This document shows, one piece after another, positions 17,140-60,939 of a stretch of 64,000 nt of DNA. A model generated the notes under the pieces. The model did no database searches. It was given only the letters and a program-made list of their open reading frames with translations, and was not told the origin of the DNA. Each line of letters opens with the position of its first letter. Within the stretch, counting starts at the first letter, position 1. This DNA comes from Pseudonocardia lacus (GTDB lineage: Bacteria; Actinomycetota; Actinomycetes; Mycobacteriales; Pseudonocardiaceae): contig NZ_JAHDTH010000017.1 in NCBI RefSeq assembly GCF_018531445.1, forward strand, positions 1-64,000, in the 5' to 3' direction. The translations under genes and the position numbers were made by a program.

Positions 17140-17203
17140 CGTCGAGAACGACGTTGCTGTCGTGTGGACCGGTCCACAATCGCGACAACTTCGTTCTCGA
17201 CGG
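17140..17203. repeat. Palindromic repeat family 2, copy 1 (diverged)
   Basis: CGTCGAGAACGA at the left and TCGTTCTCGACGG at the right frame a degenerate stem centred on GGACCGGTCC. It ends at the stop codon of the VOC gene, consistent with a minus-strand 3'-end element. Confidence 0.8.
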
Positions 17204-37624: not shown

Positions 37625-37689
37625 CCGTCGAGAACGAAGTTGTGGTGATCGACAAGCCCTGTTGATCACGACAACTTCGTTCTCGACGG
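37625..37689. repeat. Palindromic repeat family 2, copy 2
   Basis: 26-base arms at 37625-37650 and 37664-37689 with one mismatch and a 13-base loop. It lies between convergent glfT1 and the osmoprotectant-binding gene and may terminate both. Confidence 0.95.
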
Positions 37690-41931: not shown

Positions 41932-43608
41932 GTGACCACCCCCACCGATCAACCCGGCGTGCGCACCCTCGCCGACGAGTACGTCAGCCGCCTCGCCGAT
42001 CTGGACACCTCCGTCGCGACCGCGCTGGGCACCCATCCCGGCGACGACCGCGTCCCCGACCTCTCCCCGGCCGGCCACGAGGCGTTCGCCGCGCTCGCCC
42101 GCGACATCCTCGACCGGCTGCCGTCCGCGACCGTCGCCGACGACGACGACCGCCGCTGCGCCCGGCTCCTGCGCGAGCGGCTGGAGGCGGAGCTGGCGCT
42201 CGACGGGGCCGGGGAGCCCCTGCGCTCGGTGCGCAACATCGGCGGCCCGCACCAGCAGGTCCGGCAGCTGTTCGTGCTGATGCCGAAGACCACCGTCGAG
42301 GACTGGGCTGCGGTGGCCCGCCGGCTGGCCCGGGTGCCGCAGGCGTTCGCCGGCTACGCGCAGTCGCTTGCCGAGGGGTCGCGGCGCGGGCTGCACGCCG
42401 CGCCGCGCCAGGTGCGGACCGCGGTCGAGCAGCTGGACGAGTGGGCGGCGAGCGCCTGGTTCCCGACCTTCGCCGCCGAGGCGCCCACCGACGTCCCGGA
42501 CTCGCTCCGCTCGGAGCTGGCCGACGCCGCGGCCACCGCCCAGGCGTCGGTGGCGGAGCTGCGGGAGTACCTGGCCACGACGTACCTCCCGGCCGCCGAG
42601 GGCACGCCGGACGCCGTCGGCGCCGAGCGCTACCGGTTGGGCGCCCGCTACAGCACCGGCGCGGACCTCGACCTCGACGAGGCCTACGCCTGGGCGTGGG
42701 ACGAGCACCGGCGCATCGACGCCGAGATGCGCCGCGAGGTCGACGCCGTGCTGCCCGGGGCCGACCCCGCCGCGGCGATGCGCCACCTCGACGAGAACGG
42801 TCCGGCGATCGAGGGCGTCGCGGAGGTGCGGGCCTGGCTGCAGGAGATGATGGACACCGCCATCGCCGACCTGGACGGCACCCACTTCGACATCCCGGAG
42901 CCGGTGCGCGTGGTCGAGGCGATGATCGCGCCGACGGGCAGCGCCGCCGCCCCGTACTACACGCGCCCGGCGCTGGGCTTCACCCGCCCGGGCCGGACCT
43001 GGCTGCCCACCCTCGGCGAGACCCGGTTCCCGCTCTGGATGCTCGTCAGCACCTGGTACCACGAGGGCGTCCCGGGCCACCACCTGCAGCTGGCCCAGTG
43101 GACCCACCTCGCCGACCAGCTCTCGACGTTCCAGACGTCGATCGGGTCCACCTCGGGCAACGTCGAGGGCTGGGCGCTCTACGCCGAGCGGCTGATGGAC
43201 GAGCTGGGCTACCTGACGGTGCCCGGCGCCCGGATCGGCTACCTCGACGCCCAGCAGATGCGCGCGGTGCGCGTCGTCATCGACATCGGCATGCACCTGG
43301 GGCTGAAGGTGCCGGCCGACTCGCCGCTGCACGCCGGCGAGACCTGGACCCCGCAGATCGCCCGCGAGTTCTTCGGCGCGTACAGCGGCCGGCCCCCGGC
43401 GTTCCTGGACAGCGAGATCGTGCGCTACCTGGGCTGGCCGGGGCAGGCGATCAGCTACAAGCTCGGGGAGCGGGCCTGGCTGGCCGGGCGCGACGCGGCG
43501 CGCGCCGCCCGCGGCGCCGACTTCGACCTCAAGGCCTGGCACGCGGCCGCGCTGTCGCTGGGCAGCCTCGGCCTCGACGACCTCACCGACGAGCTGGCGA
43601 AGCTCTGA
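41932..43608 (+). CDS. DUF885-family putative zinc peptidase
   Basis: A 558-residue protein of the DUF885 family, which has a metallopeptidase-like fold. The candidate zinc motif is HEGVPGHH from residue 377 (TWYHEGVPGHHLQLAQ), followed by NVEGWALYAERLMDELG. A helical N-terminal region contains VRNIGGPHQQVRQLFVLMP. There is no signal peptide, so it is cytoplasmic. The substrate is not known. GTG 41932; a weak CACGAT lies seven bases upstream. It is divergent from gtrA. Confidence 0.87.
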   Translation: MTTPTDQPGVRTLADEYVSRLADLDTSVATALGTHPGDDRVPDLSPAGHEAFAALARDILDRLPSATVADDDDRRCARLLRERLEAELALDGAGEPLRSVRNIGGPHQQVRQLFVLMPKTTVEDWAAVARRLARVPQAFAGYAQSLAEGSRRGLHAAPRQVRTAVEQLDEWAASAWFPTFAAEAPTDVPDSLRSELADAAATAQASVAELREYLATTYLPAAEGTPDAVGAERYRLGARYSTGADLDLDEAYAWAWDEHRRIDAEMRREVDAVLPGADPAAAMRHLDENGPAIEGVAEVRAWLQEMMDTAIADLDGTHFDIPEPVRVVEAMIAPTGSAAAPYYTRPALGFTRPGRTWLPTLGETRFPLWMLVSTWYHEGVPGHHLQLAQWTHLADQLSTFQTSIGSTSGNVEGWALYAERLMDELGYLTVPGARIGYLDAQQMRAVRVVIDIGMHLGLKVPADSPLHAGETWTPQIAREFFGAYSGRPPAFLDSEIVRYLGWPGQAISYKLGERAWLAGRDAARAARGADFDLKAWHAAALSLGSLGLDDLTDELAKL

Positions 43609-43617
43609 GCGAGCGCC

Positions 43618-43646
43618 CCGGTGGGGCGGCTCAGCCGCCCCACCGG
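43618..43646. terminator. 14-bp hairpin between convergent DUF885 and DUF1707 genes
   Basis: Perfect arms 43618-43631 and 43633-43646; the inner pairs would open to give a loop. It overlaps the last codons of the DUF1707 gene and follows the DUF885 stop by ten bases, so it can serve both. Confidence 0.65.
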
Positions 43647-44233
43647 AACCGCTTGCGCACGGTGACCGAGCCCATCGCGGCCCGGCCGGTGACGATGAAG
43701 TGCGGGGCGCCCGCCCTCGGGGTGGAGGGCAGCTTGCTCTTCACCGACCCCATCGTCGCGACGACGCCGTCGACGTTGGCGGTGGCCTCGTCGGGCACGA
43801 TCAGCTTGGCCGACCCCGCGCCCAGCTCCAGCTCGACCTCGACGACCGGGTGCGGGTTGTCGGCCTCGACGAAGTCGAGCACCACCGACCCCATCCCGGT
43901 CTGCACCCGCAGCTTCGGCGGCACCGACCAGGCCCCGGTGCGCTTGATCGTGGACATGCCCGCCCGCAGCACCACCGGCTCGGCGTTCGCCGCCGGCACC
44001 GGCACGGCGGTGGGCCGGGCCGCGATCTGCCCGCCGGGCAGGTCGATCAGCGGCGGGACGAGGTCGGCCTCGTACTTCGCCGCGTACACCGCGGAGAGCC
44101 GGTCCTCCAACTCCTGGACGGTGATCCGGCCCTCGGCCAGCGCCTGGTGCAGCCGCTCCGCGGCGCGCTCGCGGTCGGCGTCGGAGATCCGGATGCCGGG
44201 TGGACGCGCCGGGTCCGGGGGCTGCACTGTCAC
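43631..44233 (-). CDS. DUF1707/LiaF-like cell-envelope protein
   Basis: A 200-residue protein. The N-terminal DUF1707 SHOCT-like domain reads IRISDADRERAAERLHQALAEGRITVQELEDRL. The C-terminal ~100 residues are beta-rich, with repeated GSxxLxV motifs (AGSAKLIVP, MGSVKSKLP, MGSVTVRKRFRW) like the LiaF/DUF2154 domain. There is no membrane segment. Such proteins are linked to envelope-stress signalling. GTG 44233 is seven bases after TATTGT. Confidence 0.82.
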   Translation of the reverse strand: MTVQPPDPARPPGIRISDADRERAAERLHQALAEGRITVQELEDRLSAVYAAKYEADLVPPLIDLPGGQIAARPTAVPVPAANAEPVVLRAGMSTIKRTGAWSVPPKLRVQTGMGSVVLDFVEADNPHPVVEVELELGAGSAKLIVPDEATANVDGVVATMGSVKSKLPSTPRAGAPHFIVTGRAAMGSVTVRKRFRWGG

Positions 44234-44240
44234 CCGGTCG

Positions 44241-44246
44241 ACAATA
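44241..44246 (-). promoter_or_regulatory. -10 element (TATTGT) of DUF1707 gene
   Basis: TATTGT ends seven bases before GTG 44233; leaderless arrangement. Confidence 0.45.
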
Positions 44247-44282
44247 GTGCCGAGCGCGGTCCGTGCCCGGCCGGTCCGCAAA

Positions 44283-44347
44283 CCGTCGAGAACGAACTTG
44301 TCGTGATCAACAGGGCTTGTCGATCACGACAAGTTCGTTCTCGACGG
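44283..44347. repeat. Palindromic repeat family 2, copy 3 (inverted)
   Basis: Perfect 26-base arms (44283-44308, 44322-44347) and a 13-base loop that is the exact reverse complement of the loop in copy 2. It lies seven bases after the stop of the L11-like gene. Confidence 0.95.
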
Positions 44348-44354
44348 GGGTGCG

Positions 44355-44777
44355 TCAGCCCTGGACGCGGACGCCCATGGAGCGGGCGGTGCCGGCGACG
44401 ATGCGGACGGCCTTGTCGAGGTCGTCGGTGTTCAGGTCCGGGAGCTTGCGCTCGGCGACCGCGCGCAGCTGCGCGGACGTGAGCGTGCCGGCGGTGTCGT
44501 GGCCCGGGCGCGCCGATCCCGCCGCCCCGAGGGCGCGCCGGATCAGGAACGACGTCGGCGGCGTGCGCAGCTGCAGGGCGAACGAGCGGTCGTCGAACAC
44601 GGTGACCCGGACGGGCACCACGTCGCCGCGCTGCGCGGCCGTCAGCTCGTCGTAGCGGCGCTTGATCTCGACCAGGTTGACGCCGGTCTGGCCGAGCATC
44701 TTCCCGAGCTCCGCCACGGCCGCCGCACCGGCCGTGAGCTGCAGCGTGACCTGGTGGATCGATCTCTTCGGTGGCAT
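44355..44777 (-). CDS. Diverged ribosomal protein L11 paralogue
   Basis: A 140-residue protein of the uL11 family: [55 protein letters not shown], then [25 protein letters not shown]. It is an isolated gene, not in the secE-nusG-rplK-rplA context expected for housekeeping L11. The N-terminal helix that in normal L11 carries PxPPVGP is here [16 protein letters not shown], with one residue missing and no proline. Those prolines contact 23S rRNA and thiopeptide antibiotics. ATG 44777 starts with the family N-terminus MPPK. It is divergent from dprE1. Confidence 0.88.
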
Positions 44778-44835
44778 GCCCCCGACCCTCGGGGTGGCAC
44801 CGGGTGGAGGGTCCAGGGCATTTCCCGGCCGCGAG

Positions 44836-44841
44836 TAGCCT
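44836..44841 (+). promoter_or_regulatory. -10 element (TAGCCT) of dprE1
   Basis: TAGCCT ends seven bases before GTG 44849; no ribosome-binding sequence, so probably leaderless. Confidence 0.5.
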
Positions 44842-44848
44842 CGGCGAC

Positions 44849-46207
44849 GTGCCAGAGACGACGAGCCTGCGCGGCTGGGGTCGCACCGCGCCCACCGTGG
44901 CCACCGTGCGCCGGCCGCGCACCGTCGAGGACGTGGCACGCGCGATCGCCGGGGTCGGGCCGCGCGGGGTGATCGCCCGCGGTCTCGGCCGCTCCTACGG
45001 CGACCCCGCGCAGAACGCCGGCGGGCTCGTCCTGGACATGACCGAGCTGGCCGCCGTGCACTCGATCGACCCCGACACCGGGTTGGCCGACGTCGACGCC
45101 GGGGTCAGCCTGGACACCCTGATGCGCGCCGCGCTGCCGCACGGGCTGTGGGTACCGGTGCTGCCCGGCACCCGGCAGGTCACCATCGGCGGCGCCATCG
45201 GCGCCGACGTGCACGGCAAGAACCACCACACCAAGGGCAGCTTCGGCAACCACGTCCGGTCCATGCTGCTGGTCACCGCCGACGGCGCGGTCCGCGAGCT
45301 CACCCCCGACGGCCCCGAGTCCGAGCTGTTCTGGGCCACCGTCGGCGGCATGGGCCTGACCGGTGTCGTCGTGCGGGCCACGGTACAGCTGCACCGCACC
45401 GAATCGGCGTACTTCGTGGTCGACACCGACCGCACCGCCGACCTCGACGAGCTGATGGGGCTGCTCACCGACGGCTCCGACGACACCTACGGCTACTCGG
45501 CGGCCTGGTTCGACACCACGACCACCGGGGCGGCGCTGGGCCGGGCCGTGCTGACCCGCGGCTCGCTGGCCACTGTCGACCAACTGCCGGCCAAGCACCG
45601 CGGCGAACCGCTGAAGTTCGACGCCCCGCAGCTGCTGACCGTCCCGGACGTGTTCCCGAACGGGCTGGCCAACCGCTACACGCTGCGCGCGTTCAGCGAG
45701 CTCTGGTACCGCAAGGCGCCCAAGCGCCAACGCGGCGCCGTGCAGAACATCTCGACCTTCTACCAGGTGCTCGACCTGTTCGGCGACTGGAACCGGCTCT
45801 ACGGCTCGCGCGGGTTCCTGCAGTACCAGTTCGTGGTGCCCTTCGGCGAGGAGCCGACGTTCCGCCGGGTCGTGGAGAGGATCGCGCACTCGCCGCACGC
45901 CTCCGGGCTCAACGTGCTCAAGCGGTTCGGCGAGGGCAACGCGGCGCCGCTGTCGTTCCCGATGCCCGGCTGGACCATCACCGTCGACTTCCCGGTGGTC
46001 CGCGGCCTCGACCGGTTCTGCGCCGAGCTCGACGAGCTGGTGCTGGGCGCAGGCGGCCGGCTCTACCTGGCCAAGGAGTCCCGCACCGACGCGGAGACCT
46101 TCCGCCGCGGCTACCCCCGGTTCGACGAGTGGCGCAAGATCCGCGACGCCGTCGACCCGAACCGCGTGTTCACCTCGGACATGTCGCGGCGCCTCGAGCT
46201 GGCCTGA
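44849..46207 (+). CDS. dprE1: Decaprenylphosphoryl-beta-D-ribose 2'-oxidase
   Basis: A 452-residue FAD enzyme that, with DprE2, epimerises decaprenyl-phospho-ribose to decaprenyl-phospho-arabinose, the only arabinan donor. The FAD domain shows [17 protein letters not shown] and [22 protein letters not shown]. The C-terminal part has [19 protein letters not shown] and YLAKESRT with Lys409, equal to the catalytic Lys418 of the M. tuberculosis enzyme. The residue equal to Cys387, the benzothiazinone target, is Thr378. dprE2 follows 37 bases downstream. Confidence 0.96.
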
Positions 46208-46244
46208 GCGCCGGCCCCACCCCCCACGAGCGGAGCACTCCACG

Positions 46245-47000
46245 ATGATCGACGCCCTGGGCAACCCGCAGAGCATCCTGCTGCTGGGCGGCACCTCCGA
46301 GATCGGCCTGGCGGTCGTCGAGGCCTTCTCCACCGATCGCCCCGTTCGGGTGGTGCTGGCCGGCCGCCCGTCCGAGCGCCTCGACGCCGCGAAGGCGCGG
46401 CTGGAGGAGCGCGGCTGCGCGGTGGAGACCGTCGAGTTCGACGCCACCGCCCCCGACACCCACGGCGATGTCCTGCGCAAGGCGTGGGCCGGCGGCGACA
46501 TCGACATCGCGGTCGTCGCGTTCGGCCTGCTCGGCGACAACGAGAAGGCCTGGACCGACTCGGCGACCGCGGTCGAGCTGGCCCAGGTCAACTACACCGC
46601 GGCGGTGTCGGTCGGGGTGGAGCTGGGCGAGCGGATGAAGGAGCAGGGCTACGGCTCGATCGTGGCGCTGTCGTCGGTGGCCGGCGAGCGCGCCCGCCGC
46701 TCCAACTTCGTCTACGGCTCCACCAAGGCCGGGCTGGACGCGTTCTACACCGGGCTGACCGAGGCACTGCGCCCGCACGGCGTGGTCGTGACGATCGTGC
46801 GGCCCGGGTTCGTGCACACGAAGATGACCGAGGGCCACAAGCCGGCCCCGCTGTCCACGACCCCCGAGGCCGTGGCGCAGGTCGTGGTGGACGCGGTGCG
46901 CAACCGCAAGGAGCTGGTGTGGGCGCCGGCGCCGCTGCGGCTGGTGATGACCGTGCTGCGGCACATCCCCCGCCCGGTCTTCCGCCGCCTGCCCATCTGA
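46245..47000 (+). CDS. dprE2: Decaprenylphosphoryl-2-keto-pentose 2-reductase
   Basis: A 251-residue short-chain dehydrogenase. It has the NAD(P) motif LLLGGTSEIGLAVV, catalytic YGSTK (Tyr-x-x-x-Lys) with Ser in ALSSVAGE, and RPGFVHTKMTEG. It reduces the 2-keto intermediate made by DprE1 to decaprenyl-phospho-arabinose. Gene order dprE1-dprE2 is the standard one. A family 1 palindrome follows 24 bases after the stop, probably ending the transcript. Confidence 0.95.
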   Translation: MIDALGNPQSILLLGGTSEIGLAVVEAFSTDRPVRVVLAGRPSERLDAAKARLEERGCAVETVEFDATAPDTHGDVLRKAWAGGDIDIAVVAFGLLGDNEKAWTDSATAVELAQVNYTAAVSVGVELGERMKEQGYGSIVALSSVAGERARRSNFVYGSTKAGLDAFYTGLTEALRPHGVVVTIVRPGFVHTKMTEGHKPAPLSTTPEAVAQVVVDAVRNRKELVWAPAPLRLVMTVLRHIPRPVFRRLPI

Positions 47001-60838: not shown

Positions 60839-60939
60839 CGCCCCGCCCCGGCAGCCCCGTCGAGAACGAGGTTGTCGTGATCATTTGGGCGGTTCGATCA
60901 CGACAAGTTCGTTCTCGACGGGGTTGCCGGGGCGGGGCG
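60839..60939. repeat. Palindromic repeat family 2, copy 4, with extended stem
   Basis: Core arms 60855-60882 and 60896-60923 (two mismatches, 13-base loop) are extended by G+C-rich outer arms 60839-60854 and 60924-60939 (15 of 16 pairs), a 44-base stem in total. It starts six bases after the first emb stop and ends 14 bases before the -10 of the second emb gene. Confidence 0.93.

Follow-up and report, generated by a model that had tools for sequence, protein, structure and literature searches.

An orphan ribosomal protein L11 with a rebuilt proline helix in Pseudonocardia lacus belongs to a clade whose members are the only L11 found in some related genomes

Ribosomal protein L11 is among the best studied ribosomal proteins, because both the thiopeptide antibiotics and the stringent response work through its N-terminal helix. 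Thiopeptides sit between the proline helix of L11 and A1067/A1095, and mutations in the helix lead to resistance, e.g., P22S, P23L and G25V in Bacillus megaterium (PMC9769715), although thiostrepton binding is not abolished by L11 mutations according to a review (PMC3917276). The N-terminus of L11 is also required for the activation of RelA and touches the A/R tRNA (PMC4974054). A natural variant of L11, TclQ, carries a Pro-to-Thr change (PMC12724294), and L11 proteins of this type are reported to replace the ribosomal L11 and to give immunity (PMC6804068, PMC9927498), which for micrococcin is strong (MIC above 100 ug/ml; PMC9927498). For TclQ and TclT of B. cereus ATCC 14579, a role in immunity is described as untested (PMC10704990). 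All these statements follow the sections of the cited papers that were accessible to us. In the TclQ of plasmid pBac115, which is encoded inside a thiopeptide cluster, we found that PAPPVG is kept and that only Pro26 is changed, to Thr. Immunity to thiopeptides through a substitute L11 is already known, TclQ being the example.

The window analysed here, i.e., the whole stretch of 64,000 nucleotides from Pseudonocardia lacus, encodes a second L11, hereafter the orphan (Table 1). Its translation runs from MPPKRSIHQ to RSMGVRVQG, with the stop present, and matches both L11 domains of Pfam (PF00298, 79.1 bits for a cut-off of 21.4; PF03946, 51.2 bits for a cut-off of 32.9). It scores 126.3 bits with the NCBIfam equivalog L11_bact (TIGR01632), below the cut-off of 141.85. 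On the evidence of 16 relatives and of the within-genus dN/dS, the reading frame is not a chance one. The first-pass annotation had proposed to look for a normal rplK elsewhere in the genome; there is one, at G000:C102, within secE-nusG-rplK-rplA. The orphan is identical to this protein at 35 of the 70 aligned residues of the N-terminal half and at 33 of the 70 of the C-terminal half. The divergence is thus equal in the two domains, and the change reaches beyond the drug pocket.

The helix itself has been rebuilt. The corresponding region of the genome's own normal L11 is AGAATPAPPVGPALGQ, and the aligned stretch of the orphan, in which the PAPPVGPALG segment is replaced, is one residue shorter, has no proline and places a Lys at the site of Pro26 (numbering of the prolines as in the accessible part of PMC9769715). 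The uL11-like protein with a shortened, proline-less helix that the first-pass annotation had described is therefore borne out by the reading frame, which is complete, and by the alignment. The alignment gives Lys at the Pro26 site in all 42 distinct orphans, whereas in the 135 normal L11s that could be parsed (out of 136 other sequences) it is Pro 117 times, Thr 17 times and Ser once. The stretch before this site counts 6 residues in 42 of 42 orphans and 7 (133 sequences) or 8 (2 sequences) in the normal L11s. Of the 42 distinct members of the clade, 20 retain a single proline at the front of the stretch; the other 22, the window's copy among them, have none. As a side observation, the Thr present naturally in 17 of the 135 parsed normal L11s is the change reported for TclQ.

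Table 1. Features of the orphan L11 locus, in positions of the window.
Feature	Position	Strand	Basis
Orphan uL11 paralogue, 140 aa + stop	44355..44777	(-)	ORF translation, Pfam domains, supported clade, dN/dS
Rebuilt proline helix, codons 18-29 of the orphan	44691..44726	(-)	Alignment
Lys26 at the Pro26 site of the orphan	44700-44702	(-)	Alignment
71-nt gap shared with divergent dprE1	44778..44848	.	Coordinates; dprE1 start taken as 44849
Inverted repeat, two 30-nt arms, just past the orphan stop	44283..44347	.	Arm complementarity, RNA fold
Copies of GTCGAGAACGAACTTGTCGTGATC	37627-37687, 44285-44345, 60859-60919, 17178-17201		Pattern search of the window

A tree of 136 L11 sequences unites the distinct orphans, one per genome, in a single clade (support 100/99), and the clade persists when the helix residues are removed (SH-aLRT 99). 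Most of them (38) come from the window's family; two other families of the order supply 3 and Paractinoplanes rishiriensis 1, and the 16 related orphans compared with the window's copy are 56-85% identical to it. The five orphans from the window's genus group together (100/94), and four of them have the same neighbours. Their pairwise dN/dS ranges from 0.23 to 0.39; for the normal L11, compared in four of the five genomes, it is 0.14 to 0.24. The one L11 in the tree from a named Pseudonocardia (L119) branches among the sequences of the window's genus, in keeping with the probable placement of the window in Pseudonocardia. The distribution within the genus is patchy: 56 genomes were examined, six had two L11 matches and five the orphan. 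At the level of the family, about 84 of the 346 genomes have two PF03946 matches (hand count), and among the 27 of these whose second copy was read there were 26 orphans and one fragment of a normal L11 (G572). Three of the 346 lacked a PF03946 match (G024, G351, G553). A search of 298 genomes of the order, with at most 13 candidates scored in each, gave 17 orphan genomes, counting that of the window, of which 3 belong to other families. In a phylum-wide search, which scored at most 10 first-look candidates per genome and which diverged orphans may therefore escape, a threshold of E 1e-47 retained 16 of the 396 genomes; the window's own was the sole orphan and the other 15 were of the operon type by sequence. 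Among the matches listed in a scan of contigs from named organisms, 79 of 80 loci encode a normal L11 and only L087, from P. rishiriensis, an orphan. A search of viral contigs returned no relatives of the orphan, and in plasmid (78) and phage (19) records every match among those listed (60 of the 78 and 10 of the 19) was below 60% identity. One record labelled as a plasmid, L281 (NZ_AP028965, Bacillus subtilis), bears a secE-nusG-rplK-rplA-rpoB ribosomal region.

Members of the orphan clade can be a cell's only L11. In 12 of the 346 family genomes, the genome search gave a single weak PF03946 match, which belongs to the orphan clade, and no other L11. These are all the genomes sampled in five genera (3 in g23, 3 in g98, 2 in g28, 2 in g96 and 1 in g36) and 1 of 16 in g18. 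Every candidate was scored in G135, G186, G243 and G317, with one PF03946 match each, and in G340, G342, G355, G359, G364, G366, G380 and G382, with one profile match each. Near-complete assemblies in a single contig stand behind three of these genera (G135, G243 and all three g98 genomes). The rplK gene has gone from its operon: in all 12 genomes and in P. rishiriensis, where the loss is established at the rplA locus only, nusG is followed by rplA without rplK between them, and the gap separating the two genes is 80-190 nt in these 13 loci vs 534-852 nt in 12 comparison loci that have an L11. Given these sole-L11 genomes, the loss of rplK from the operon and the single clade, it is very likely, as judged from genome content, that the orphan serves as a functional alternative L11. 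The specialised stalk-base component put forward by the first-pass annotation is strongly supported by the same observations, although the window's genome itself keeps rplK.

The absence of rplK arose more than once on a tree of NusG and RplA (94 rows), where the 13 losses require 6 changes, at least 4 of them forced by supported branches. Holding all 13 genomes as one group on this tree is rejected by the AU test (p 1e-93); holding the 12 family genomes as one group is weakly rejected (p 0.028). The L11s of the 13 genomes lacking rplK nevertheless form one clade (SH-aLRT 94; 92/76 for 12 of them in the tree of 136 L11s), and one orphan lineage thus covers several losses. This could reflect either horizontal spread or an old paralogy followed by later sorting.

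The same data bear on whether the orphan is degenerating after duplication or works somewhere other than on the ribosome. Its patchy presence in the genus and its faster evolution relative to rplK would fit such a fate, but the dN/dS values denote purifying selection, 42 of 42 members are intact with Lys26 fixed, and genomes exist in which no other L11 is found. We regard this fate as very unlikely, though less firmly so for the copy in the window, whose genome also has a normal L11.

The surroundings of the orphan vary between genomes. In the window, its neighbours are dprE1 (NCBIfam NF053785, 741.2 bits for a cut-off of 500), on the divergent side, dprE2 next after it (NF053786, 408.8 bits for a cut-off of 250), and genes for DUF1707, DUF885, an acyltransferase and a nitroreductase. 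The position beside cell-wall genes given by the first-pass annotation is thus confirmed by NCBIfam, but a meaning for this neighbourhood is not: it looks incidental, since orphans occupy many different places. The gap between the orphan and dprE1 must hold the putative promoter of the orphan. The inverted repeat past its stop, which precedes the next gene on the same strand (DUF1707), has arms that are 97% complementary and an RNA fold of -63.9 kcal/mol (z -10.5); it is probably a transcription stop that isolates the orphan in its own transcript, intrinsic termination being presumptive because a clear U run is absent after it. The 24-nt arm GTCGAGAACGAACTTGTCGTGATC is found 7 times in the window when up to 3 mismatches are allowed, against an expectation of 0, and on three occasions the copies pair as the two arms of a hairpin. 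Its strict pattern is absent from 271 of the 274 loci examined, and the remaining 3 all contain the window's site; it has the appearance of a repeated hairpin, or terminator, peculiar to one lineage. Rfam gave nothing above the gathering score at positions 43000-46500.

Elsewhere, and with associations counted without comparison to chance, the orphan lies beside a carbonic-anhydrase-like gene, often with glyA, in several genera of the family (identities by reading), and adjoins ClpP-like genes in P. rishiriensis and G380. A DUF3418 helicase gene adjoins it in G317 and G328, with an arabinosyltransferase gene also beside it in G317, and arabinosyltransferase homologues lie within about 10 kb of it in two genomes of the window's genus. 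A small cysteine-rich gene directly 3' of the orphan in three genomes of two families (L032:7436-7843, L075:8632-9036, L076:7334-7759) is a possible partner; its version in L075 weakly matches ABATE, a stress regulator. In the three g98 genomes the orphan adjoins the gene of release factor RF3 (Pfam RF3_C in L267; tblastn 92-94% in L268 and L269), and in P. rishiriensis BipA is encoded two genes away.

These last settings would suit an alternative ribosomal L11 selected for the function of the stalk base, i.e., for the handling of EF-G, EF-Tu or RF3, or for a weakened RelA stringent response, as a natural relC-like variant. The role of the L11 N-terminus in RelA activation, with its contact to the A/R tRNA (PMC4974054, accessible part), argues for this, and the spread of the change over both domains, i.e., over the whole protein, leaves room for it. 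The RF3 and BipA settings amount, however, to three congeneric genomes plus one other, free of controls, and other orphan loci are without them; the change in the helix, moreover, falls on residues of the drug site. We consider this alternative unlikely, if the most serious of those weighed.

A comparable change of the helix is found in some L11s of the operon type. In genera g78 and g94, L11 reads NPASVGQALG (L188-L190, L192) and lies between nusG and rplA in the four genomes for which both sequence and locus were read; in five further g78 genomes, the L11 score is lowered alike or the protein is a fragment. L206, from another family of the phylum, reads NPAKVGQTLG. As in the orphan, the stretch before the Pro26 site is one residue shorter (6 residues) and the site is changed, to Gln in 5 of 5 instead of Lys. 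Unlike the orphan, the proteins of g78 and g94 remain in the nusG-rplA operon, keep IMEFCKAYN and are 63-69% identical to the normal L11. The orphan clade is thus not alone in the shortening and the loss of Pro26, a pattern that agrees with selection on that spot. The tree is compatible with a shared origin of the remodelled L11s and the orphan, and with independent origins too.

In 23S rRNA, positions 1067, 1095 and 1097 follow the E. coli numbering. The GTPase-centre sequence was visible in 25 genomes; 16 of 20 assemblies, among them those of the remodelled genera g78/g94 and several drafts, gave no 23S match and are outside this set. A1095 is kept in 25 of 25 and A1067 in 24 of 25, the exception being G317 (L226/L246), which has G at 1067, A at 1097 and a proline-free protein as its only L11. 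Of the 10 sole-L11 genomes in this set, 1 is thus changed at 1067; of the 15 others, none. The thiopeptide tolerance raised by the first-pass annotation is plausible: the positions of P22S, P23L and G25V are changed in the orphan (PMC9769715, accessible part), and one rplK-less genome has A1067G. Against it, a review reports that thiostrepton binding survives mutations of L11 (PMC3917276, accessible part), the counts of thiopeptide precursors given below are not significant, and 9 of the 10 sole-L11 genomes keep A1067. The patchiness of the orphan in its own genus and its divergence over the whole protein also weigh against the reading favoured below.

A narrower version of this idea is that the orphan is a self-immunity gene of thiopeptide producers, like TclQ. 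Thiopeptide precursors (TIGR03892) are matched in 3 of 13 sole-L11 genomes, but also in 2 of 15 genomes with a normal L11 only, in 0 of 4 with a remodelled L11 and in 0 of 14 with both L11s, among them the window's own; the differences are not significant (Fisher p 0.13 and 0.64), and the orphan neighbours that were tested include no recognisable thiopeptide gene. With precursor genes not clearly enriched and absent from the window's genome, self-immunity is unsupported, and we hold it to be the least probable of the explanations considered. The window's orphan has neither the thiopeptide cluster nor the Pro-to-Thr change in an otherwise kept helix that mark the TclQ type. The analogy with TclQ made in the first-pass annotation thus stands for the kind of protein, an L11 substitute, and is looser than suggested in other respects.

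A stalk base insensitive to thiopeptides would best explain the helix of the orphan. We think it rather probable, from sequence comparisons, that the orphan is a working alternative uL11 whose rebuilt helix makes ribosomes bind thiopeptides poorly while the function of the GTPase centre is kept. The C-terminal domain would still bind the 1051-1108 region of 23S rRNA, and the N-terminal proline helix, which closes the thiopeptide pocket, would have been rebuilt by the loss of the prolines, the removal of a residue and the placement of Lys at Pro26. Ribosomes bearing the orphan would then still handle the factors, but their drug pocket would no longer be closed. In the window's genome, the orphan may exchange with the coexisting normal L11 under some conditions; it takes the place of rplK in six genera of the family or more, and also in P. 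rishiriensis. We infer that the orphan is incorporated into the 50S subunit, that it confers drug insensitivity and that it is regulated; what is observed directly is the sequence of the orphan, its clade, the disappearance of rplK and the lack of another L11 in 12 family genomes. The fuller history is more tentative, and we give it somewhat less than even weight: a proline-free uL11 lineage may have repeatedly ousted rplK, yielding thiopeptide-blind ribosomes, probably by horizontal spread and with A1067 changed once, and the window would represent the stage with both L11s, maybe swapped. The orphan is real, functional by the logic of the genomes, and partly explained.

Our search of the open-access literature, subscription papers being outside its scope, turned up no description of an L11 without the prolines, or of the absence of rplK from these bacteria. 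Nor did it reveal an old orphan clade of the proline-free kind that has displaced rplK in several genera; such a clade is new relative to that literature. Natural genomes living on an L11 without the proline helix offer a ready test of proline-dependent functions. Orphan genomes that lack rplK would widen surveys of thiopeptide resistance past 23S rRNA methylation, and annotation that requires rplK as a marker would miscount the genera without it.

Compared with known systems, the orphan shares with the normal actinobacterial uL11 (rplK) both L11 domains along the full length, but is 47-49% identical to it, lies outside the nusG operon, has a rebuilt helix and falls under the L11_bact cut-off. 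Laboratory relC and thiopeptide-resistant mutants are hit in the same helix (P22S, P23L, G25V; PMC9769715, accessible part), but they are single changes of rplK obtained under selection, whereas the orphan is an old paralogue. TclQ and TclT of the micrococcin and thiocillin clusters are, like the orphan, second uL11s altered in the helix that contacts thiopeptides. The orphan is 39% identical to the TclQ of pBac115 and differs from it in having lost the prolines and one residue and in having Lys; unlike TclQ, it is encoded outside a thiopeptide cluster, and its clade has displaced rplK.
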